From assembly GCA_913046025.1 (NCBI GenBank), contig CAJWRP010000106.1, positions 1 to 7,167 on the forward strand: DNA of 7,167 nt, in the 5' to 3' direction. Source of the DNA: an uncultured Chloroflexota bacterium (GTDB taxonomy: Bacteria > Chloroflexota > Dehalococcoidia > SAR202 > UBA11138). A model generated the notes under the pieces. The model made no database searches. It saw only the letters and a program-made list of their open reading frames with translations, and had not been told where the DNA came from. The position numbers and the translations under genes were made by a program. Below, in pieces: positions 1-7,167 of this stretch (position 1 is the stretch's first letter; every line of letters begins with the position of its first letter).

Positions 1-2
1 GC

Positions 3-53
3 AATATTGATGAATCAACAGGAGCCTATGTCATCACTATCTCCGGACAATAA
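3..53 (+). CDS. C-terminal tail of an unidentified protein (partial)
   Basis: Reading from base 3 gives 16 residues ending in ...GAYVITISGQ and then TAA at 51-53. The alternating polar/hydrophobic beta-strand character fits the end of a real protein better than the other two frames, of which one hits stops at once. The piece is too short to assign a family. The other possible frame (base 1, stop at 58-60) reads a less protein-like peptide. Everything upstream is outside the window. Confidence 0.3.
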   Translation, partial: NIDESTGAYVITISGQ

Positions 54-156
54 CCTCCGATAGCATCCTCGCTATTCATCCAACAGCCCAATAGCTTCCT
101 CTAGGTGATTAGCTGCAACTTATGAAACCTGCGTGGAAAACTAATTAGTCAGTAGC

Positions 157-220
157 TTAGGTAATTATCGACCTAATCCGGCTAGAACCTAACGGCTAGG
201 AATCCCATGGGGGATTAGGT
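157..220 (+). promoter_or_regulatory. Structured leader with two mutually exclusive stems, upstream of the thioesterase
   Basis: ACCTAATCC (171-179) pairs perfectly with GGATTAGGT (212-220), a 9-bp stem. Its first six bases can instead pair with TTAGGT (157-162) across an 8-nt loop, so the two hairpins cannot coexist. Within the long loop, CCTA (188-191) can pair with TAGG (197-200). The arrangement resembles an attenuator or switch about 80 nt upstream of the start at 301, but no known riboswitch class is recognised. The same stretch carries copy A of a repeat found again at about 1895 and 1981, so a mobile or structural repeat is the competing explanation. Confidence 0.35.
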
Positions 221-226
221 ACAGTT
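180..226 (+). repeat. Intergenic repeat, copy A (GGCTAG...CCCATGGGG...TTAGGTACA)
   Basis: Contains GGCTAGGAATCCCATGGGG at 194-212, followed by GATTAGGTACA. The word GGCTAG also occurs 14 nt earlier (180-185), giving a degenerate internal duplication. Copies B (about 1895) and C (about 1981) share GGCTAG, three purines, TCCCATG and a downstream TACAA-like word. All three copies are in the same orientation and in non-coding DNA. Function unknown: a miniature mobile repeat or a structured RNA domain. Confidence 0.5.
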
Positions 227-300
227 GGTGGTATAGATTTATACATCCGATCCGCATGGTAGCCTTAGTGGGTCCTACTAAATACTAGAGTTAAAAATAA

Positions 301-1170
301 ATGAATGAATCAGTAATTCAACAGGCATTTTTCGAAAGAGATCCCAATAAATCAAACTTGTATTATCCAACTGTCCATGCAAGGGGTCCTTGGGATCCAT
401 CTACACTTCATGGCAGGGTTATTTCGGGCTTGCTGGCATATGAAGCGGAAACTAATCACAACACACCGCAAGAGATTGAAGATTTTCAAGTGTCCAGGGT
501 TACTGTGGATATGTTCAGGGTTCCTCCTATGGCTCCGTTGATGTTAGGGGGAGAAGTAGTAAGAACAGGTCGGAGGATCAAGGTAATTGATGTGCATGTA
601 ACCACAGAATATCCCGATATAGGATGGATTGAAATTGCCAGAGCAACCGTGGTTATGTTGCGAAAAACCCAGAATCCTAATGGCACGATCTGGACCACTC
701 CTAAGTGGGACATTAATGCGCCTGACGAAAATCTCCCCATGCCTTCCGAAATTGATGGAAGAAAACCAACAAAAGGACACAAACCTATATGGCAAACACT
801 GGAAGTTACGCCTGGTTCCCCTCATCAGCCTATTCAGTCGGGTACTGGTGGCACCATAGGGCGGCGGCGTGCGTGGATCAGGGAGATACATGAACTAATC
901 GCAGGTGAAATTACCAGTCCAATTGTAAGAGTCGCGCAAGTGGCCGATGTTGCTAATCCCTTCGCTAATTCAGGAACTCACGGACTCGTTTATATTAATG
1001 CTGATGTGTCTCTTTACCTGCACAGAAACCCAGAAGGTAATTGGATAGGTACAGAGAATTCTTATCATGATGCAGATAACGGGACGGCAGTAGGAACGGT
1101 AACTTTATATGACAAAACGGGAAATATAGGAAGTGCGACTGTTTGTGGTTTGGCTCAGGTTCCTATTTAG
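301..1170 (+). CDS. Acyl-CoA thioesterase-like protein, double-hotdog fold
   Basis: A 289-residue protein that I read as a TesB-like thioesterase-superfamily member, expected to hydrolyse acyl-CoA esters in the cytoplasm. The first hotdog shows LHGRVISGLLAYEAE (36-50), matching the buried central helix of the family, then a strand pair with RVTVDMFRVPPMAPL (66-80) and VVRTGRRIKVIDVHV (86-100). The second hotdog near the C-terminus has FANSGTHGLVYINADVSLYL (221-240), HRNPEGNWIG and TLYDKTGNIGSA (268-279), the usual R-x-P-x-G-x-W-I and YD-x-x-G-x-x-G pattern. Length fits a complete double-hotdog protein. ATG 301 is the only sensible start, yet no Shine-Dalgarno is visible in the A-rich stretch before it; a leaderless or weakly initiated message is possible. 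Substrate is unknown, and some relatives lack demonstrated thioesterase activity. Confidence 0.75.
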   Translation: MNESVIQQAFFERDPNKSNLYYPTVHARGPWDPSTLHGRVISGLLAYEAETNHNTPQEIEDFQVSRVTVDMFRVPPMAPLMLGGEVVRTGRRIKVIDVHVTTEYPDIGWIEIARATVVMLRKTQNPNGTIWTTPKWDINAPDENLPMPSEIDGRKPTKGHKPIWQTLEVTPGSPHQPIQSGTGGTIGRRRAWIREIHELIAGEITSPIVRVAQVADVANPFANSGTHGLVYINADVSLYLHRNPEGNWIGTENSYHDADNGTAVGTVTLYDKTGNIGSATVCGLAQVPI

Positions 1171-1233
1171 AGCTAACCGCTGTTTTTCTTTGAATACCCC
1201 AGACGGATTATGATGGACAAACGAGTTCAACGA

Positions 1234-1281
1234 TGCTTTGCAAGCAGGGGATCAGGGGTTCGAATTCCCTAAGCTCCACCA
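1234..1281 (+). ncRNA. tRNA-like 3' end resembling tmRNA (ssrA); fragment, possible att scar
   Basis: AGGGG (1254-1258), TTCGAAT (1259-1265) and TCCCT (1266-1270) form a T-arm with a canonical 7-nt loop and one G-U pair. It is followed by a 7-nt acceptor strand AAGCTCC (1271-1277), discriminator A and encoded CCA (1279-1281). The ending AGCTCCACCA is typical of tmRNA. The expected 5' partner (GGAGCTT or GGGGCTT) and a D-arm are not found at tRNA distance upstream, and the thioesterase occupies the space where the body of tmRNA would lie. TGCTT/AAGCA (1234-1246) forms a small hairpin just before the T-arm. A displaced ssrA 3' end is what site-specific integration into ssrA leaves behind, but no integrase or second copy is in the window. 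Confidence 0.5.
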
Positions 1282-1383
1282 CAATGCTAGGCGCGAAATA
1301 GCCCCCTAAGAGAGATTATGGGTACTCCACACCGAATAACTGTCATAAATTTGTTTTCGATTTATTTGGCCATGGGACATTAG

Positions 1384-1803
1384 ATGAATAGCCGTTTGCC
1401 AGACAAAGTGATTTTCTTTGATGGTTATTGCGTCGCTTGTAATAAGATGGTGGATTTCTTACTAGATAAAGATTCAGTCGGGTCGTTCAGATTCGCAACT
1501 CTACAATCAGAGATCGCCAAGATTACCCTTCCAGCATCCGGCTATCCGCTCCAATCTGTACAGAATTTGGATAATGTGGTCTATATAAGGCTTGGAAAAT
1601 TAATAATCAAATCTGATGCTATTTTATCTATAGCGGTCGACATTGGCGGCCTATACAAGGCTACAGCTCTCTTGTACGTGATACCAAAGTGGATCAGAGA
1701 TATGATTTACGATGCGTTTGCACAACGTCGATATGGTTGGTTTGGGAAGAATGAGTTTTGCCGTGTTCCTACTACAAACGAATTAACCAGATTCCTAGAC
1801 TAG
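1384..1803 (+). CDS. DCC-family thiol-disulfide oxidoreductase-like protein (DUF393)
   Basis: A 139-residue protein with the family signature near the N-terminus: a VIFFDGYCVACN block at 9-20, giving a CxxC pair at Cys16 and Cys19 after the conserved FDG. The family is named for its D-C-C pattern and is predicted to have a thioredoxin-like redox fold. The C-terminal block RYGWFGKNEFCRVP (116-129) matches the usual R-Y-x-W-F-G-K ending, and its Cys126 is a third cysteine. Length is normal for the family, so the gene looks intact. GGGA sits about 10 nt before the ATG as a weak ribosome site. The gene is AT-rich (18 of 60 bases G or C in 1561-1620 by hand count), unlike the right half of the window. 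Partner and substrate are unknown. Confidence 0.85.
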   Translation: MNSRLPDKVIFFDGYCVACNKMVDFLLDKDSVGSFRFATLQSEIAKITLPASGYPLQSVQNLDNVVYIRLGKLIIKSDAILSIAVDIGGLYKATALLYVIPKWIRDMIYDAFAQRRYGWFGKNEFCRVPTTNELTRFLD

Positions 1804-1883
1804 TTTGTTATGGCGTCTTCAAAACCAGTATTCCTTCTCAGAATAGCCTTATAAGCCTTAGTAACATCCTTGCAGTCTACTGA

Positions 1884-1934
1884 TGTATCCTCGTGGCTAG
1901 GGGTCCCATGAGAGATACAACGTCCCTAAGGTTG
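1884..1934 (+). repeat. Intergenic repeat copy B inside a strong stem-loop
   Basis: TGTATC (1884-1889) and CTCGTGG (1890-1896) pair with CCATGAG (1906-1912) and GATACA (1914-1919): 13 pairs with one G-U and one bulged A, enclosing a 9-nt loop CTAGGGGTC. CAAC (1918-1921) and GTTG (1931-1934) can form a second small hairpin. The shared repeat word GGCTAG-GGG-TCCCATG spans the loop and inner stem. No T-run follows, so it is not a simple intrinsic terminator for the DCC gene. The 1804-2021 interval shows no convincing gene. Confidence 0.5.
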
Positions 1935-1980
1935 TAATGCCTCTTTACTGACATCCTAGGGCCTCAGAGGGCTATCCAGC

Positions 1981-2010
1981 GGCTAGAAGTCCCATGGGGT
2001 TAGTACAACG
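1981..2010 (+). repeat. Intergenic repeat, copy C
   Basis: GGCTAGAAGTCCCATGGGG (1981-1999) followed by TTAGTACAACG. It begins 86 nt after the GGCTAG of copy B. Compared with copy A, it lacks a few bases after the CCCATGGGG palindrome but keeps TTAG-TACA. Its outer stem is weaker than in A and B: CTATCC about 1972-1977 against GGTTAG at about 1998-2003, with one mismatch. It lies immediately before the lipoprotein pseudogene and may have been part of that gene's leader. Confidence 0.45.
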
Positions 2011-2021
2011 GGGGTAGGGAG

Positions 2022-2367
2022 ATTAATCTCAAGCTCACAACATCATTTCTTCTACCAACAGCATTTATGTAGCTGCTGGTAGCTTGTGGCGCGGATGCTC
2101 AGCCATCACCTACGGCTTCTCCAACGGCTGTGCCCATGCCAAGACCTGCGTCGATACCAACGCCTGTCCAAGGTATTCCACTTAAGAGCGCATCCGCAAT
2201 TACCTCACTGCCCTCTAGCAAGGTATCAATACACATACGGAAATGTACGGAACAGGCGCTGACCCTAATATTATCACGCTTGGCCCCGAAGTTGGTGGTC
2301 ATCCATGTTGAGGACAGGGACCACCTAGACCGTAAATATGAGATTCAAGCGGGCTTTGGTTGACTAA
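2022..2367 (+). pseudogene. Decayed lipoprotein gene, possibly cupredoxin-like
   Basis: One frame reads INLKLTTSFLLPTAFM, a TAG (2070-2072), then LLVACGADAQPSPTASPTAV: a hydrophobic signal segment, a lipobox (LVAC) and a Pro/Thr/Ser linker, as in exported lipoproteins. The TAG sits inside the signal peptide and no good start precedes it (ATT at 2022 is where a start would fall). After the linker the best protein-like text jumps frames: EMYGTGADPNIITL (from 2240), KLVVIHVED (about 2286-2312), then GTT-TAG-TVNMRFKRALVD (2317-2364) before TAA at 2365. Read together these recall a copper-binding cupredoxin strand order in which the TAG at 2326 replaces a Trp codon. That family guess is tentative. 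A GTG at 2130 opens 77 codons, but they cover only the linker and mixed frames. Confidence 0.4.
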
Positions 2368-2401
2368 ACTGAGCATTTACCACTGCGTGAAAACCCAAGC
2401 C

Positions 2402-2430
2402 TTGACCCTCCACTACGCCCCTGCTAAACT
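2402..2430 (+). promoter_or_regulatory. Candidate sigma-70-type promoter for the OsmC gene
   Basis: TTGACC at 2402-2407 (5 of 6 matches to TTGACA) and TAAACT at 2425-2430 (4 of 6 matches to TATAAT) are separated by exactly 17 nt. Transcription would begin near 2437, leaving a leader of about 95 nt before the ATG at 2532. It is the best-spaced promoter pair seen in the window, and gives the selenoprotein gene its own transcript. Confidence 0.45.
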
Positions 2431-2437
2431 CACGCAA

Positions 2438-2451
2438 ATTCGATCGCGAAT
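2438..2451 (+). promoter_or_regulatory. Inverted repeat at the predicted transcription start (operator candidate)
   Basis: ATTCG-ATCG-CGAAT is a perfect 5-bp inverted repeat around a 4-nt centre, directly over the start predicted from the 2402-2430 promoter. A dyad in that position would suit a repressor. The palindrome at 5827-5838 (AAATTCGAATTT) uses the same ATTCG/CGAAT half-sites closed up. The regulator is unknown. Confidence 0.3.
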
Positions 2452-2459
2452 CCATTCAT

Positions 2460-2499
2460 GGCCGCACTGCCACAAGGGCCTTTTCCAGTAAGTGTGGCC
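2460..2499 (+). other. Leader hairpin upstream of the OsmC gene
   Basis: GGCCGCACT (2460-2468) pairs with AGTGTGGCC (2491-2499) over 9 bp with one G-U, leaving a 22-nt loop that contains GGGCC and TTTTCC. It lies in the predicted 5' leader, ending about 20 nt before the ribosome site. No T-run follows the stem, so it is not a classical terminator; a stabilising or regulatory leader structure is the likeliest role. Confidence 0.35.
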
Positions 2500-2531
2500 A
2501 GCCGGACATCCAAAATAAAAAGGACAAGACT

Positions 2532-3053
2532 ATGACGACTGATATTCCGCATGAGGTGATTGGGCCAGAGCTGCCCGAGGGCGGCACCAAGCGCACCATG
2601 GTGGTCGACTGCGAGCACGTCGAGAAGATGCTGCACAAGGGCACGCGAAACCAGTTCACCATATACTCCGACGAGCCTGAGCGCATCGGCGGCGACGACA
2701 ACTATCCCTCGCCACTGGCTTACATTGTTTCCGGCATAGGATTCTGACTGCTTACCCAACTGAAGCGGTACGCTACTATGAGGAAAATTCCCATCGGCTC
2801 AGCTAAGGTCCACGTCGAGATGGACTACTATCTGTCAGGATCAGTCCTGGCTGGAACGGTCAACAGCGGCGTCACAGGTGTTCGCTCTGACTTCGAGGTC
2901 ACTAGCGACGCATCTGAAGACGAGATACTGAACGTCATCCGTTTGGCCAAGCGCGGCTGCTTCGCCGAGCGCCTGGTGGAGACGGCAGTACCCGTCCAGA
3001 GCATGCTAAAGCTGAACGGCAAAGAGGCAACCGCCCGGCTCAACGAGAGCTAA
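2532..3053 (+). CDS. OsmC-family peroxiredoxin-like protein, probable selenoprotein (Sec72)
   Basis: Translating through the in-frame TGA at 2745-2747 joins two open segments into one 173-residue protein. OsmC/Ohr-type proteins reduce organic hydroperoxides using a cysteine at the start of the long central helix and a second cysteine later. Here GGDDNYPSPLAYIVSGIGF (53-71) is followed by the TGA (72) and LLTQLKRYA (73-81), exactly the P-x-P...G-x-x-Cys-L-x-T-x-L-x-x-Y-A site, so the UGA stands where the catalytic Cys belongs. The second Cys is Cys143 (AKRGCFAERLVE). The frame stays open and conserved for 101 codons after TGA. AAGGA at 2520-2524, 7 nt before ATG, decides the start. A SECIS-like hairpin follows the TGA. 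Decay is the rival view, as both neighbours are pseudogenes, but those carry other lesions; no other break occurs here. Stop overlaps the pfkB remnant by 4 nt. Confidence 0.85.
2756..2783 (+). promoter_or_regulatory. Candidate bacterial SECIS element
   Basis: AGCG (2764-2767) pairs with CGCT (2771-2774), closing the 3-nt loop GTA; the loop starts 20 nt after the TGA. Bacterial SECIS elements are coding-region hairpins shortly downstream of UGA, with a small apical loop having G at its first or second position, as here (G2768). Below an A-A mismatch the stem continues discontinuously: G2762-C2776, U2761-A2778, C2760-G2780 and CC (2756-2757) with GG (2782-2783). An alternative hairpin, CTGCTT (2748-2753) with AAGCGG (2763-2768), competes for the same bases and sits too close to the UGA. 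Assignment is by eye. Confidence 0.6.
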
Positions 3054-3550
3054 CTTTTACTGGCTAGTTCGTCAGTAGTGGGAGGCGATGCTCCGATCCT
3101 GGTGCAGGCCAGAACTGTCACGCGATTGGCCTATGCCATTGCGTCCGTTAGCGGGCGCTCCGATATGGTAGACATCGCCTCCTGCGACAGCAGACCTTGC
3201 CCGAAGAGGTGCGCCAACAGTCCAGCGTTAAAGGCGTCGCCTGCTCCCACTGTGTTCGCAATTTGGATTGACACTCCGGGTGCGTCAGTCTCGCAGCGTA
3301 GTGTGTAGCCATTGGCTCGACGCCCTCCATGCGTCCCTACGACAACGACCGGCCCTAGATCCAGCCAACGCCTCGCTACGTCCTCAGGTTGCTGATCTAA
3401 AAACAACCAGGAGAGGTCTTGCTGGCTGACCTTGACCAGATTCGCAAAGGGCACCAAACTCTCTATTCGGCGAAGGTAAGCGTGACGACTAAGCAGCGAC
3501 GGCTTGAAGGCGGCACCATTATAATTCAGCTTCGTGATACTTGGCGCAAT
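3050..3550 (-). pseudogene. Truncated PfkB-family sugar kinase with internal stop
   Basis: The minus-strand frame is open from about 3550, with a TAA at 3551-3553, down to TAG at 3050-3052. It shows the C-terminal half of a ribokinase/fructokinase-like protein: KPSLLSRHAYLRRIESL, ANLVKVSQQDLSWL, VVVVGTHGGRRANGY, then NTVGAGDAFNAGLLAHL, which contains the GAGD anion hole with the catalytic Asp. PfkB proteins are about 300 residues; the first 130-150, including the N-terminal sugar-binding motifs, are missing. A TAG at 3131-3133 interrupts the frame, after which ANRVTVLACTRIGASPP (the normal PfkB ending) continues in frame. A TTG at 3457 would start only an internal piece. With both a 5' truncation and a nonsense codon this is a remnant, not a working kinase. 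It converges on the OsmC gene, overlapping its last 4 nt. Confidence 0.8.
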
Positions 3551-3570
3551 TTACAAATTTAATGAAATTT

Positions 3571-3586
3571 ACGAAACACACGAAAC
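3571..3586 (+). promoter_or_regulatory. Tandem ACGAAAC direct repeats upstream of the LLM gene
   Basis: ACGAAAC occurs at 3571-3577 and 3580-3586, a 9-bp period, inside an AT-rich patch (3547-3590) that also has ATTTAC twice and AAATTT twice. It lies 67 nt before the ATG at 3653 and just beyond the point where the kinase remnant is cut off. It could be a regulator site or part of the promoter for the LLM gene; TTGGCG (3541-3546) with TGAAAT 16 nt later is a weak promoter match. Confidence 0.25.
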
Positions 3587-3652
3587 CTTAATGGCTATGC
3601 CCCTCTATTGCCTGGAAAAGTCGGGCCGCCGTCCAACGACAAGGACTAACGT

Positions 3653-4597
3653 ATGAGATATGGCTTCTATCTGCCCCACAACGGGCCGACAGCCAAACCT
3701 GGCGACCTAAAACAGATAGCCCAAAAAGGTGACCGCCTAAGCTTTGACTGCATGGTTGTAGGTGACCACGTGATGGTGCCGCGCCAGTCGGATTCCCAGT
3801 ATCCATATTCAATTGGCAACCAGGTGCCCTGGGGAGACGACGGCGAGCATCTAGAACAACTAACCGAGCTTACCTTCCTGGCGGGTATCACTGAACACAT
3901 TCGCATAGTGCCCAGCGTGATGATTGTTCCCTACCGCAATCCGCTGTTAACGGCGAAGATGCTGGCAACGATGGACGTGTTATCTGAGGGTCGGCTTACC
4001 GTGGGAGTAGGCGTCGGCTGGCTAGAAGAGGAGTTCGAAGCCCTAGACACACCACCCTTTGCCGAGCGTGGAGCAGTGACCAACGAATACATTCTTGCTT
4101 TCAAGGAGCTTTGGACCAGCGACATCCCGACCTTCGAGGGGAAGTACTGCCAACTGTCCAACATTAGCTTCTCTCCCAAGCCGGTCCAGAAGCCTCACCC
4201 GCCGATATGGGTTGGTGGCAACAGCAGGCCCGCCATGCGTCGAGCGGTGGAACTAGGCGACGCGTGGCACCCGGTTGGCGCTACGCCAGCGACTCCACTG
4301 GAACCTGAAGAGCTATCCGCTAACCTTGAATATATAAAACGCCACGCCGACAAAATCGGTCGCGACCCGGCAGAGGTAGAAATCGCCATGAAGGCGCCGC
4401 TGTACGACAAAGAGGCAACAGCGTCGGGGCCGAGACGAAGATTCTCTGGCACCGCCAACCAGGTAGCGGAAGACATTGCTGTCTACTCCGATATTGGCGT
4501 CGGCCATCTTATTTTCGACACCCGCAGCGACGACCTGAGCCACTCCCTGGAGCGCATGGCCTGGCTGGCTGAAGACGTTATGCCACAGGTGAACTAA
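3653..4597 (+). CDS. LLM-class flavin- or F420-dependent oxidoreductase
   Basis: A 314-residue luciferase-like monooxygenase-fold protein. MRYGFYLPHNGP at the start, DCMVVGDHV (32-40), VMIVPYRNPLLTAKMLATMD (89-108), LSEGRLTVGVGVGW (110-123), FEGKYCQL (161-168) and HPPIWVGGNS (182-191) are the usual strand-end motifs of the TIM barrel. Such enzymes oxidise or reduce small organics with reduced FMN or coenzyme F420; this layout is closest to predicted F420-dependent oxidoreductases of the Rv2161c type, but the cofactor cannot be settled by eye. Length is normal and the frame intact. AAGGA (3641-3645), 7 nt before ATG, matches the OsmC gene's ribosome site. It is the first of three plus-strand catabolic genes; the 374-nt gap before the SDR argues against one tight operon. 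No signal peptide, so cytoplasmic. Confidence 0.88.
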   Translation: MRYGFYLPHNGPTAKPGDLKQIAQKGDRLSFDCMVVGDHVMVPRQSDSQYPYSIGNQVPWGDDGEHLEQLTELTFLAGITEHIRIVPSVMIVPYRNPLLTAKMLATMDVLSEGRLTVGVGVGWLEEEFEALDTPPFAERGAVTNEYILAFKELWTSDIPTFEGKYCQLSNISFSPKPVQKPHPPIWVGGNSRPAMRRAVELGDAWHPVGATPATPLEPEELSANLEYIKRHADKIGRDPAEVEIAMKAPLYDKEATASGPRRRFSGTANQVAEDIAVYSDIGVGHLIFDTRSDDLSHSLERMAWLAEDVMPQVN

Positions 4598-4737
4598 TCT
4601 ATTTGGCTACCCAGCCGCTGGCTCCGCTGCACAGGTAGAGTACATCTGACGAGGAATCAAACTTCACCAGCCCCGATCTGGGTTGAGTTACAAATCTGAC
4701 GCACTTAGATTGCCAGTACCACGTTATTTAGCCGCCC

Positions 4738-4743
4738 TATAAT
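4738..4743 (+). promoter_or_regulatory. Consensus -10 box, possible promoter of the SDR gene
   Basis: TATAAT matches the sigma-70 -10 consensus at all six positions. No good -35 lies 16-18 nt upstream; the nearest candidate, TTGCCA at 4710-4715, is 22 nt away, which is too far for a standard promoter. Transcription from here would give a leader of about 220 nt before the SDR start at 4972. Confidence 0.3.
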
Positions 4744-4845
4744 AGCTACTTGAGTGATTTGCTAGATGAGAGCCATGGTAGAGGTCCTACATCGTTATGT
4801 TAACCCTGCCGTGTTGTTGAGGCCCGGCATAGCCATTGCAACACT

Positions 4846-4872
4846 CGCCATCGCCACAGGAACGCGATGGCG
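4846..4872 (+). other. Strong 9-bp hairpin in the SDR upstream region
   Basis: CGCCATCGC (4846-4854) and GCGATGGCG (4864-4872) are perfect complements closing a 9-nt loop CACAGGAAC. There is no following T-run, so an intrinsic terminator is unlikely. It lies 99 nt before the SDR start and may be a leader structure or a repeat. Confidence 0.45.
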
Positions 4873-4971
4873 GCGGGCTTGATTACTGGTTGACCTGTAC
4901 GGAATTGAGTACCATATCGCTAGTGAATCGCGTCATCGCATTCCAGGACTATTTGAGAGGTAATCGAAGAA

Positions 4972-5766
4972 ATGGATTTTAATCTAAAAGGCAAAGTTGC
5001 CATTGTTGGCGGAGGAAGCAAGGGACTGGGTCGAGCCAGCGCACAGGTGTTGGCGGAAGAGGGTGCGAAAGTTGCCATCTGCGCCCGCACGCTAGCAGAC
5101 CTTGAAACGGCAGCCAGCGAGATACGGGAGTCTACCGGCAGCGAGGTCTTCGTTTTTGCTGGCGACCTGGACAAGCCCGAGACAATCGAAGACCTAGTGG
5201 GCCAAACTGTTGGCCACTTTGGAAGACTCGACATTCTGGTTAACAACTCCGGTGGACCTCCTCTGGCGAGAGCGGCGACCGCAACCGAGGAGCAGTGGGC
5301 TACCTCAGTTCAGCGCTCCCTGCTGTTCTTCGCCCGCATGTGCAGAGCAGGCATTCCTCACATGAAAAAGCAGGGCGGCGGCAGGATTATTAACATCCTC
5401 GCCAGCACTGTGTACCAGCCAATCGACAATTTGGCCCTGTCGGGCGCGACACGTATGGGTGTGGTCTCATACGCCAAGAGTCTCTCGGATGAGATCGGCA
5501 AGGACGGCATCCTGGTAAACAACGTCTGTCCCGGCGCACTGCTAAGCGAACGCATGCTGGCCAACACGCAAAACCGTGCCGATGCCCAGGGCGTTACGCT
5601 AGAGGAGGCGCTCCAGGGCCGAGCTGACGAGACCTCCGTAGGCCGCGTTGGTGACCCCATGGAACTGGCATACCTGGTGGGATTCCTCGCGTCTGATAAG
5701 TCCAGCTACATTACCGGCACAACAATGCTGGTGGACGGCGGTATGGTCCGCTCGGTACTTTCGTAG
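4972..5766 (+). CDS. Atypical short-chain dehydrogenase/reductase family protein
   Basis: A 264-residue Rossmann-fold SDR. The dinucleotide motif GGGSKGLG (13-20) replaces the textbook TGxxxGIG; DLD (65-67), NNSG (91-94), the long helix, PG (188-189) and a VDGGM ending are all in place. The start follows GAGAGG (4955-4960) at 11 nt. The active site is odd: after Ser145 (ILAST), the block that should read YxxxK is NLALSGATRMGVVSYAKSL (153-171), so Tyr is replaced by Leu156 and Lys by Thr160. This matches a recognised divergent SDR group with LSN-type motifs, often misannotated as FabG. It may use other residues or work without classical hydride-transfer chemistry. It lies between an oxidoreductase and an amidohydrolase, 97 nt before the latter, suggesting a shared catabolic role. 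The substrate is unknown. Confidence 0.88.
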   Translation: MDFNLKGKVAIVGGGSKGLGRASAQVLAEEGAKVAICARTLADLETAASEIRESTGSEVFVFAGDLDKPETIEDLVGQTVGHFGRLDILVNNSGGPPLARAATATEEQWATSVQRSLLFFARMCRAGIPHMKKQGGGRIINILASTVYQPIDNLALSGATRMGVVSYAKSLSDEIGKDGILVNNVCPGALLSERMLANTQNRADAQGVTLEEALQGRADETSVGRVGDPMELAYLVGFLASDKSSYITGTTMLVDGGMVRSVLS

Positions 5767-5826
5767 ACCATCTAGCTTATCCAAAGAAATTGTTGCGGCG
5801 TTCAAAGATGGGTCACCGCAACATTC

Positions 5827-5838
5827 AAATTCGAATTT
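5827..5838. promoter_or_regulatory. Perfect 12-bp palindrome between SDR and amidohydrolase
   Basis: AAATTCGAATTT reads the same on both strands and lies 15 nt before the amidohydrolase ribosome site. Its half-site AATTCG is shared with the 2438-2451 dyad. It could bind a homodimeric regulator, but a 12-bp AT-rich palindrome can occur by chance. Confidence 0.25.
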
Positions 5839-5863
5839 ATCGTAGGAATGAAAAGGAGAGAAA

Positions 5864-6826
5864 ATGAGAAATATCGATATCCACGCGCACATTAGTCCCG
5901 AGCCCTTCATCGCGGCAATGAAGGCGGGTGAGAACTGGCATGGCATAACCGAGGACATCCTGCCCATGCACCTCCACAATCCCCGCACGGTCTGGACGCC
6001 CGAAGAGCGTTTGGCAGACATGAACTCGTGGGGCGCGGACATCCACGTGCTCTCAACCAACGCCCCTTTTTACCAGTACAACAGGGAGGCCTCCAAGACG
6101 GCGGCCATGCACCGAGACTGCAATGACTACATCGCAGGCCTGGTAAAGCAGTACCCCACGCGCTTCTCCGGACTAGCCACGCTTCCCATGCAAGACCCGG
6201 AAGCGGCGGCGGCAGAATTGGAACGTTCTGTTAAAGAGTTAGGCCTGAAAGGCGCAATGGTTGGCGACCACGTCAACGGCAAGACCTACGACAACCCGGA
6301 GTTCCGTCCCGTATGGAAGGTCGCCGAAGAGCTGGGAGCCGTCTTCCTGATACATCAAGGTGGCGACACGATCGTCAGTCCTCGCCTGGACGACTATCAC
6401 CTGTCCAACGCCATCGGCAACCTGGCCGACCGAACGGTGACCTTCGCCTCTTTCGTTTTCGGCGGAGTCATGGACGAGTTCCCCAACCTCAGGGTATGCC
6501 TAAGCCACGGTGGCGGGTATGTCTGCAATGGTATCGGACGCATGGACAGAGTTTGGCAGGTACGCACAGAAGCCAGGGCCAACAACACCAGAAAGCCCAG
6601 CGAGTACCTGCGCAACTTCTACTATGACAACCTGACGCATAGTGAGCCAGCGCTGCGCTACCTCATCGATACGGTGGGCGTGGACAAGGTACTGTTTGGA
6701 ACTGACTGGCCTTTCGACATGTGCACCGACTGGCCCATCTCAGACCTCCTGGCCATGGAGAGCATCACGCAGGAAGAGAAAGAGGCGATTCTATACAAGA
6801 ACCTTGAAGAGCTTCTAGGGCTGTAA
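5864..6826 (+). CDS. Amidohydrolase family 2 protein, ACMSD-like metal-dependent decarboxylase/hydrolase
   Basis: A 320-residue TIM-barrel amidohydrolase. Metal ligands are in the expected order: IDIHAHISP with His7 and His9, FLIHQGGD with His164, VCLSHGGGYV with His215, and LFGTDWPFD with Asp281. This is the ACMSD-like arrangement, whose members decarboxylate (aminocarboxymuconate semialdehyde, resorcylate) or hydrolyse ring-derived acids using one Zn2+ or Mn2+. FPNLRVCLSHGGG and KVLFGTDWPF are family hallmarks. Length is typical and no residue seems missing. AAGGAG (5853-5858), 5 nt before ATG, is the strongest ribosome site in the window. It follows the SDR by 97 nt in the same direction and ends 23 nt before a strong terminator, so it is the last gene of its transcript. 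Cytoplasmic. The substrate cannot be read from sequence. Confidence 0.92.
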   Translation: MRNIDIHAHISPEPFIAAMKAGENWHGITEDILPMHLHNPRTVWTPEERLADMNSWGADIHVLSTNAPFYQYNREASKTAAMHRDCNDYIAGLVKQYPTRFSGLATLPMQDPEAAAAELERSVKELGLKGAMVGDHVNGKTYDNPEFRPVWKVAEELGAVFLIHQGGDTIVSPRLDDYHLSNAIGNLADRTVTFASFVFGGVMDEFPNLRVCLSHGGGYVCNGIGRMDRVWQVRTEARANNTRKPSEYLRNFYYDNLTHSEPALRYLIDTVGVDKVLFGTDWPFDMCTDWPISDLLAMESITQEEKEAILYKNLEELLGL

Positions 6827-6849
6827 TTCGCTCTATCTACTTCTAGTGA

Positions 6850-6886
6850 TAGAAAAGTCCTCTGCAATTGCAGAGGACTTTTTCTA
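6850..6886. terminator. Bidirectional intrinsic terminator
   Basis: AGTCCTCTGCAA and TTGCAGAGGACT form a perfect 24-bp palindrome, flanked by AAAA on the left and TTTTT on the right, with TAG/CTA pairing outside that. The RNA hairpin plus U-run works on either strand. It sits between the amidohydrolase and the minus-strand gene ending at 7030, so it can end both converging transcripts. Confidence 0.92.
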
Positions 6887-6910
6887 TGCTTCGATGGAAT
6901 TTTGTTGCCT

Positions 6911-6950
6911 GCCCTTCGGCAAGCTCGTGGCGAACGATAGTTTACGTTCG
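6911..6950. repeat. Hairpin-forming intergenic repeat-like element
   Basis: CCCTTCGGCAAGCTCGTGG is followed by CGAACG (6931-6936), an 8-nt spacer and CGTTCG (6945-6950), a 6-bp inverted repeat. The text resembles the widespread intergenic repeat CCCTTCGACAGGCTCAGGGCGAACG seen in many bacterial genomes; the match is from memory and imperfect. A second, wider dyad, TGCCAAT (6958-6964) and ATTGGCA (7014-7020), flanks the rest of the gap. No gene is seen between 6887 and 7029. Confidence 0.4.
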
Positions 6951-7029
6951 TGGAGAGTGCCAATTACACGAGCATCCACTGCCTACATCTACCGCTCGTT
7001 AGAGTGACAGACGCATTGGCAAGCCTGAC

Positions 7030-7167
7030 CTAATCGGATATGCCTAGCTCGCCCCGAAGGTCGCGAATGGTCTCGGCTCGCGTCCGCGTAGGCCTACGCT
7101 CCCTCATACCAATGGGCAGGTTCTCTACCTCAGGCACAACCTTAATTGAGACGAAGACAGGGCCTTC
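7030..7167 (-). CDS. C-terminus of a probable thiamine-diphosphate-dependent enzyme (partial)
   Basis: The minus strand is open from the window edge to TAG at 7030-7032, giving 45 residues that begin EGPVFVSIKVVPEVENLP and continue IGMRERRPTRTR. A G-P-x-x-V-x-I-K-V strand followed by a short basic tail is how the small ThDP-binding (sulfopyruvate decarboxylase beta-like) and larger acetolactate-synthase-like enzymes end, just after the last strand of the pyrophosphate-binding domain. The cofactor motif GDG...NN lies outside the window, so the assignment rests on this tail only. It converges on the amidohydrolase and shares the terminator at 6850-6886. It could instead be another alpha/beta enzyme with a similar last strand. 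Confidence 0.55.
   Translation of the reverse strand, partial: EGPVFVSIKVVPEVENLPIGMRERRPTRTRAETIRDLRGELGISD

Follow-up and report, generated by a model that had tools for sequence, protein, structure and literature searches.

A predicted OsmC-related selenoprotein gene with an in-frame UGA in an uncultured SAR202-type Chloroflexota bacterium

Introduction

OsmC-like selenoproteins were reported from the Sargasso Sea in 2005 as three sequences (PMC1088965) and from the Global Ocean Sampling (GOS) data in 2008 as five (PMC2398784), and the family has been tabulated with the motif UxxT, U being selenocysteine (Sec) (PMC9312934, PMC13188914). The bacterial Sec insertion sequence (SECIS) is described there as a hairpin shortly after the UGA with a G in a small apical loop (PMC1088965). 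A 2006 survey gave the Chloroflexi three selenoproteins of three families, and OsmC is unmentioned in the available part of its text (PMC1794560). Here we describe a 7,167-nucleotide stretch of contig CAJWRP010000106.1 (the window, positions 1 to 7,167) from an uncultured Chloroflexota bacterium, in which an OsmC-related gene is divided by a TGA codon that is very probably read as Sec. A previous reading of this DNA made without database searches (the sequence-only reading) had pointed to Sec-containing OsmC proteins in marine metagenome surveys, correctly (PMC1088965, PMC2398784), and had cautioned that the family may not be new. It is not, because it was reported in 2005 and 2008 and has its own NCBIfam model, NF041052.

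Results

The features on which the analysis rests are as follows.

2532-3053, plus strand: predicted OsmC-related selenoprotein gene, 173 codons and stop TAA, recognized by profile matches
2745-2747, plus strand: UGA, codon 72, predicted Sec at the reactive (peroxidatic) OsmC position, from the alignment and the conserved TGA in relatives
2521-2524, plus strand: AGGA, 7 nucleotides upstream of the ATG and read directly from the sequence, which may be the ribosome-binding site of the gene
2670-2675, plus strand: Asp47-Glu48, invariant in the 42-row alignment
2761-2777, plus strand: SECIS-like hairpin region, from comparative pairing and covariation
2958-2960, plus strand: Cys143, proposed resolving residue, invariant in 42 rows and aligned with a Cys of 3cje

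The frame runs from the ATG at 2532 to the TAA at 3051-3053 and gives a joined product of 173 residues. As the sequence-only reading had claimed, it is a single frame divided by the TGA, which is the sole in-frame stop and is followed by 101 codons without another; the alternative frames beyond the TGA contain 5 and 4 stops. When the gene was compared with those of six relatives, the ratio of nonsynonymous to synonymous substitution rates (dN/dS) was 0.11 to 0.31 downstream of the TGA and 0.10 to 0.34 upstream of it (five of the six values being computable), and the low values beyond the TGA therefore indicate that this stretch is kept as protein.

Profile searches were run with Cys written in place of Sec. 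Pfam OsmC (PF02566) spanned residues 54 to 156, across the TGA, at 54 bits (cut-off, 27.5), and the joined protein scored 164.6 bits with NCBIfam NF041052 (OsmC_like_Se; cut-off, 95), with the post-TGA part by itself falling below that cut-off at 90.3 bits. All eight distant Sec forms tested passed NF041052 (112 to 175 bits), and of two Cys forms in the same search one passed (97.1) and one narrowly failed (94.4); the Cys-type proteins P0003 and P0010 scored 152.5 and 144.1 bits. The structural match list was headed by OsmC/Ohr-type chains, with 10 to 22% identity to the solved Ohr/OsmC chains at ranks 1 to 34, and where the NCBIfam Ohr and OsmC models were listed the family members scored far below their cut-offs. 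The protein is thus predicted to fold as an OsmC/Ohr subunit.

The position of the UGA was examined in a 42-row alignment, in which residue 72 was Cys or Sec throughout and Cys in all 11 Cys-type rows. The UGA therefore stands at the reactive Cys of OsmC, as had been proposed, and the second cysteine is likewise retained. The sole invariant positions of this alignment were D47, E48, G53, P59, Y64, C/U72, A139, and C143. Residues 72 and 143 both align with cysteines of the OsmC-like chain 3cje. Glu48 is likely to be the active-site acid, a role that we assume by analogy with Ohr.

Relatives of the gene were sought by a contig scan with peptide patterns that excluded codon 72, which yielded 17 loci. 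TGA was found at codon 72 in all 15 intact relatives, which come from independent Chloroflexota assemblies titled Chloroflexi, Dehalococcoidia, or SAR202 and are 59 to 87% identical to the window protein, the nearest being L001 (87%). A further locus, L016 (SAR202-II-177A copy, 6001-6540), retains the TGA, with the frame broken upstream of this codon and a short deletion downstream; these lesions may reflect sequencing error or decay, and L016 was excluded from the counts, alignments, and tree. The remaining locus, L017 (Verrucomicrobiota, 40% over 63 residues), was dropped as spurious because its frame continues into another protein.

Wider searches extended this pattern. Across the class, 18 of 294 genomes held 20 matches, with TGA exactly at the reactive column in 16 and Cys in 4. 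Across the phylum, 400 genomes gave at least 56 matches in at least 53 genomes, at least 29 of which contain a TGA; these are lower bounds, as up to eight candidates were scored per genome. The position of the TGA was checked for the 30 phylum loci that were fetched; 26 of them carried it in the reactive column, and the remaining 4 lacked a TGA. Removal of repeats left a set of 52 distinct intact Sec-type genes, the window gene included, and the UGA column was retained across genes 24 to 87% identical to it. The residue at +3 from Sec was Thr in 46 of the 52 and Ser in the other six, which thus deviate from UxxT (L053, L055, L059, L060, L070, and L074). One genome (G135) carries two different Sec-type OsmC genes (L047 and L059), and another (G292) carries one Sec-type and one Cys-type gene (L060 and L054, respectively).

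Among 28 homologous proteins in a large protein database, 9 were full length with Cys at the reactive site, 18 were fragments of 95 to 108 residues comprising the post-UGA part only, and one, P0002, had Trp at the place of the UGA. A gene very similar to that of P0002, L042, has TGA at the position of this Trp. Public records thus truncate the gene at the UGA or give Trp there.

The stretch after the UGA was then considered as RNA. In the window, AGCG (2764-2767) can pair with CGCU (2771-2774) around a GUA loop (2768-2770), with an extra pair, G2762-C2776, beyond an A-A mismatch; the core stem starts 17 nucleotides after the UGA. Across 16 close genes a single degenerate amino acid is kept at 57 positions, and codons 79 to 81, which form the stem AGCG-GUA-CGCU, are the only ones of the 57 also to have a single codon in all 16 genes. 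For three positions picked at random from the 57, 7 of the 29,260 possible choices would be consecutive. The excess of codon identity peaks over codons 77 to 84.

Folding was extended to 51 of the 52 Sec genes (L050 was left out). The aligned-pair count was made on 41 of these, the other 10 being out of register by 1 to 2 bases (L046, L047, L048, L049, L059, L060, L063, L064, L066, and L067); this choice was made after the registers had been seen, and the count was therefore repeated with all 51. In the 41 genes, 88.3% of cells pair, two-sided changes occur in six of the seven pairs, one pair occurs as A-U, C-G, U-A, and G-C, and the loop G is kept in every row. Paired cells and covariation exceeded 500 of 500 shuffles with 41 genes and remained above all shuffles with 51. 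When synonymous shuffles served as the background, the 51 genes had a mean z of -1.8, with 38 below -1, and 50 of them had an uninterrupted stem of 4 or more pairs at a matching distance. Six Cys-type control genes had 1 to 3 of the 7 pairs in the hairpin register, and three of the controls (L054, L089, and L090) had stems of 6 to 8 pairs elsewhere in the stretch. An Rfam scan of the window found no family at gathering scores.

Sec machinery was counted in the genomes of 16 relatives (G001 to G016) and in 14 control genomes at curated cut-offs. Among the relatives, SelB was found in 14, SelA in 15, tRNA-Sec in 15, and SelD in 16, and among the controls in 2, 1, 5, and 2, respectively. ARAGORN called tRNA-SeC with anticodon tca in all 15 loci given to it, the input omitting the sub-threshold match of G016. 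SelA was also over the cut-off in all 17 further genomes with OsmC matches. The selD gene of these genomes itself contains one in-frame TGA, the full gene being present in 15 of the 16 and a fragment in G011, and SelD is likely a second selenoprotein of these lineages.

The distribution of Sec and Cys was examined on a tree of 67 rows (52 Sec and 15 Cys). The labels require 6 changes, at least 3 of them forced by well-supported branches; shuffled labels required 13.7 on average, and none of 500 shuffles needed as few as 6. With its midpoint root and several long branches, the tree sets no direction of change between Sec and Cys. Sec was commoner than Cys among the Chloroflexota sequences sampled; because the query used to gather the sample was of the Sec type and most of the sample is from Chloroflexota, the excess is not a census.

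The gene order downstream is the same in L001 as in the window, with pfkB, luciferase-like, short-chain dehydrogenase/reductase (SDR), and amidohydrolase genes. One further feature belongs here.

3131-3457, minus strand: PfkB kinase fragment, matching profile positions 181 to 269 of 302 only

A similar PfkB fragment lies at the equivalent place in L001, and the window fragment is probably a decayed gene. The thioesterase (301-1170) and DCC1-like (1384-1803) proteins had no match in L001 to L016. A weak tmRNA-like match (1100-1281, plus strand; 10.9 bits, E value of 0.015, gathering score of 47) ends in a tmRNA-type 3' end (GGGTTCGAATTCCC...GCTCCACCA), and ARAGORN called no gene at this match; the stretch could be an integration-site remnant. 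The G+C content is 0.42 to 0.49 over positions 1 to 2400 and 0.53 to 0.59 in most windows beyond, and the low-G+C part together with the tmRNA-like end could mark a foreign stretch. A noncoding 20-nucleotide repeat, CGGCTAGGAATCCCATGGGG, occurs in three copies that are 75 to 100% identical (193-212, 1894-1913, and 1980-1999).

Discussion

We conclude that the gene very probably encodes an OsmC-related selenoprotein (NF041052) in which the UGA is read as Sec by the bacterial route, because the UGA is conserved, the hairpin covaries, relatives possess the Sec machinery, and a curated family model matches. The same four lines of evidence uphold the sequence-only reading, which had called the product a probable selenoprotein. 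SelA and SelD would serve the charging of tRNA-Sec(UCA), and SelB would deliver it to the UGA with the SECIS hairpin downstream. By analogy with the OsmC/Ohr family, a hydroperoxide would be attacked by Sec72 as the peroxidatic residue, and Cys143 would resolve Sec72 as a selenenylsulfide, which a dithiol would then reduce.

The TGA might instead have arisen in a Cys-type OsmC gene by nonsense mutation or through a sequencing error, leaving a pseudogene. Cys-type homologues at 38 to 49% identity do exist (P0003 to P0007, P0010, P0014, P0020, and P0023) and the window hairpin is weak by itself, but the presence of TGA at codon 72 in all 15 intact relatives, whose assemblies are separate, in effect refutes this explanation, and both the purifying selection downstream of the TGA and the confinement of invariant degenerate codons to the hairpin argue further against it; we give it practically no credence. 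An error in this one sequence and close relatives with Cys, the two outcomes to which the sequence-only reading would have yielded, are excluded by the same assemblies. The UGA might also be read as Trp or Cys, through an altered code or a special tRNA. The Trp in the gene caller's record P0002 speaks for this, and a Cys reading would fit the Cys homologues; however, in copies L002 to L005 of this gene the terminal stop is itself TGA, and UGA therefore also terminates there, while the covarying hairpin and the set of tRNA-Sec, SelA, SelB, and SelD are specific to Sec. Judged from the TGA stops and the Sec machinery, with no search made for a UGA-reading tRNA-Cys or tRNA-Trp, this explanation is very improbable. 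In the available text of PMC5424206, where a reading of UGA as Cys in Chloroflexi was sought, the term "UGA" does not occur. A selenoprotein that reduces another electrophile or carries out thiol/selenol exchange, with no peroxidase role, is unlikely but a more serious alternative. It would accord with the low identity to solved chains (10 to 22%), with the scores far below the Ohr and OsmC cut-offs, and with the literature examined, in which no assay of an NF041052 protein was found, and is opposed by the OsmC/Ohr fold and by the two invariant reactive positions aligned with the cysteines of 3cje.

Several observations weigh against the conclusion that the UGA encodes Sec in a peroxidase. Folded alone, the window hairpin is unremarkable, with z of +0.36 against synonymous shuffles and of -0.15 and -0.22 against dinucleotide shuffles, and its stem of 4 continuous pairs is equalled at 14% of the gene's other codons; the signal emerges from comparison only. 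L012 has 2 continuous pairs only. The number of pair types was not above shuffles in the 41 rows (177/500), nor were pair types (377/500) or two-sided pairs (364/500) in the 51. Over the cut-off, two of the 16 relatives' genomes lacked SelB, one SelA, and one tRNA-Sec, possibly from incomplete assembly. Three genomes in which every match found was of the Cys type also had SelA, and the presence of SelA alone therefore does not separate Sec from Cys forms. The machinery, which the sequence-only reading had looked to in the source genome, was found in related genomes; the result rests on these relatives, with the window's own genome outside the comparison. The putative peroxidase activity, which the sequence-only reading had expected Sec to raise, is carried over from the OsmC/Ohr family.

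Sec may be long-standing, perhaps ancestral, in the Chloroflexota OsmC family, with an old UxxT/UxxS radiation and some Cys forms derived by Sec loss; we offer this tentatively and would not be surprised if it proved wrong. If it is true, the radiation includes genomes with two Sec paralogues or with a Sec and a Cys paralogue, and the redox defense of abundant uncultured Chloroflexota relies on selenium far beyond annotation.

This selenoprotein family was originally predicted on the basis of a few marine reads; the comparative evidence for it is strong and places it in uncultured Chloroflexota of the Dehalococcoidia/SAR202 type. "Chloroflexi" or "Chloroflex-" is absent from the main texts of PMC2398784, PMC13188914, and PMC9312934. 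In the open-access literature (most subscription journals lie outside it) we found no paper joining selenoprotein, OsmC-like, and Chloroflexi, no mention of NF041052, and none joining SAR202 with selenoprotein. On these sequence comparisons, the breadth of Sec-OsmC in Chloroflexota may be new and is undescribed as far as the literature was searched.

Compared with the Ohr/OsmC peroxiredoxins (1lql, 2onf, 1n2f, and 1qwi), which use a peroxidatic Cys, the window protein is predicted to have Sec, shares 11 to 19% identity, and falls by profile into a separate subfamily. The Cys-type homologues named above belong to that same subfamily and differ in having Cys instead of Sec at position 72. Relative to the described OsmC-like selenoproteins and NF041052, nothing is different in kind: the window protein shares the OsmC domain, the replacement of the reactive Cys by Sec, the UxxT motif (here ULLT), and the SECIS-like hairpin after the UGA, and its host is a Chloroflexota bacterium of the Dehalococcoidia/SAR202 type, as assigned through its named relatives.
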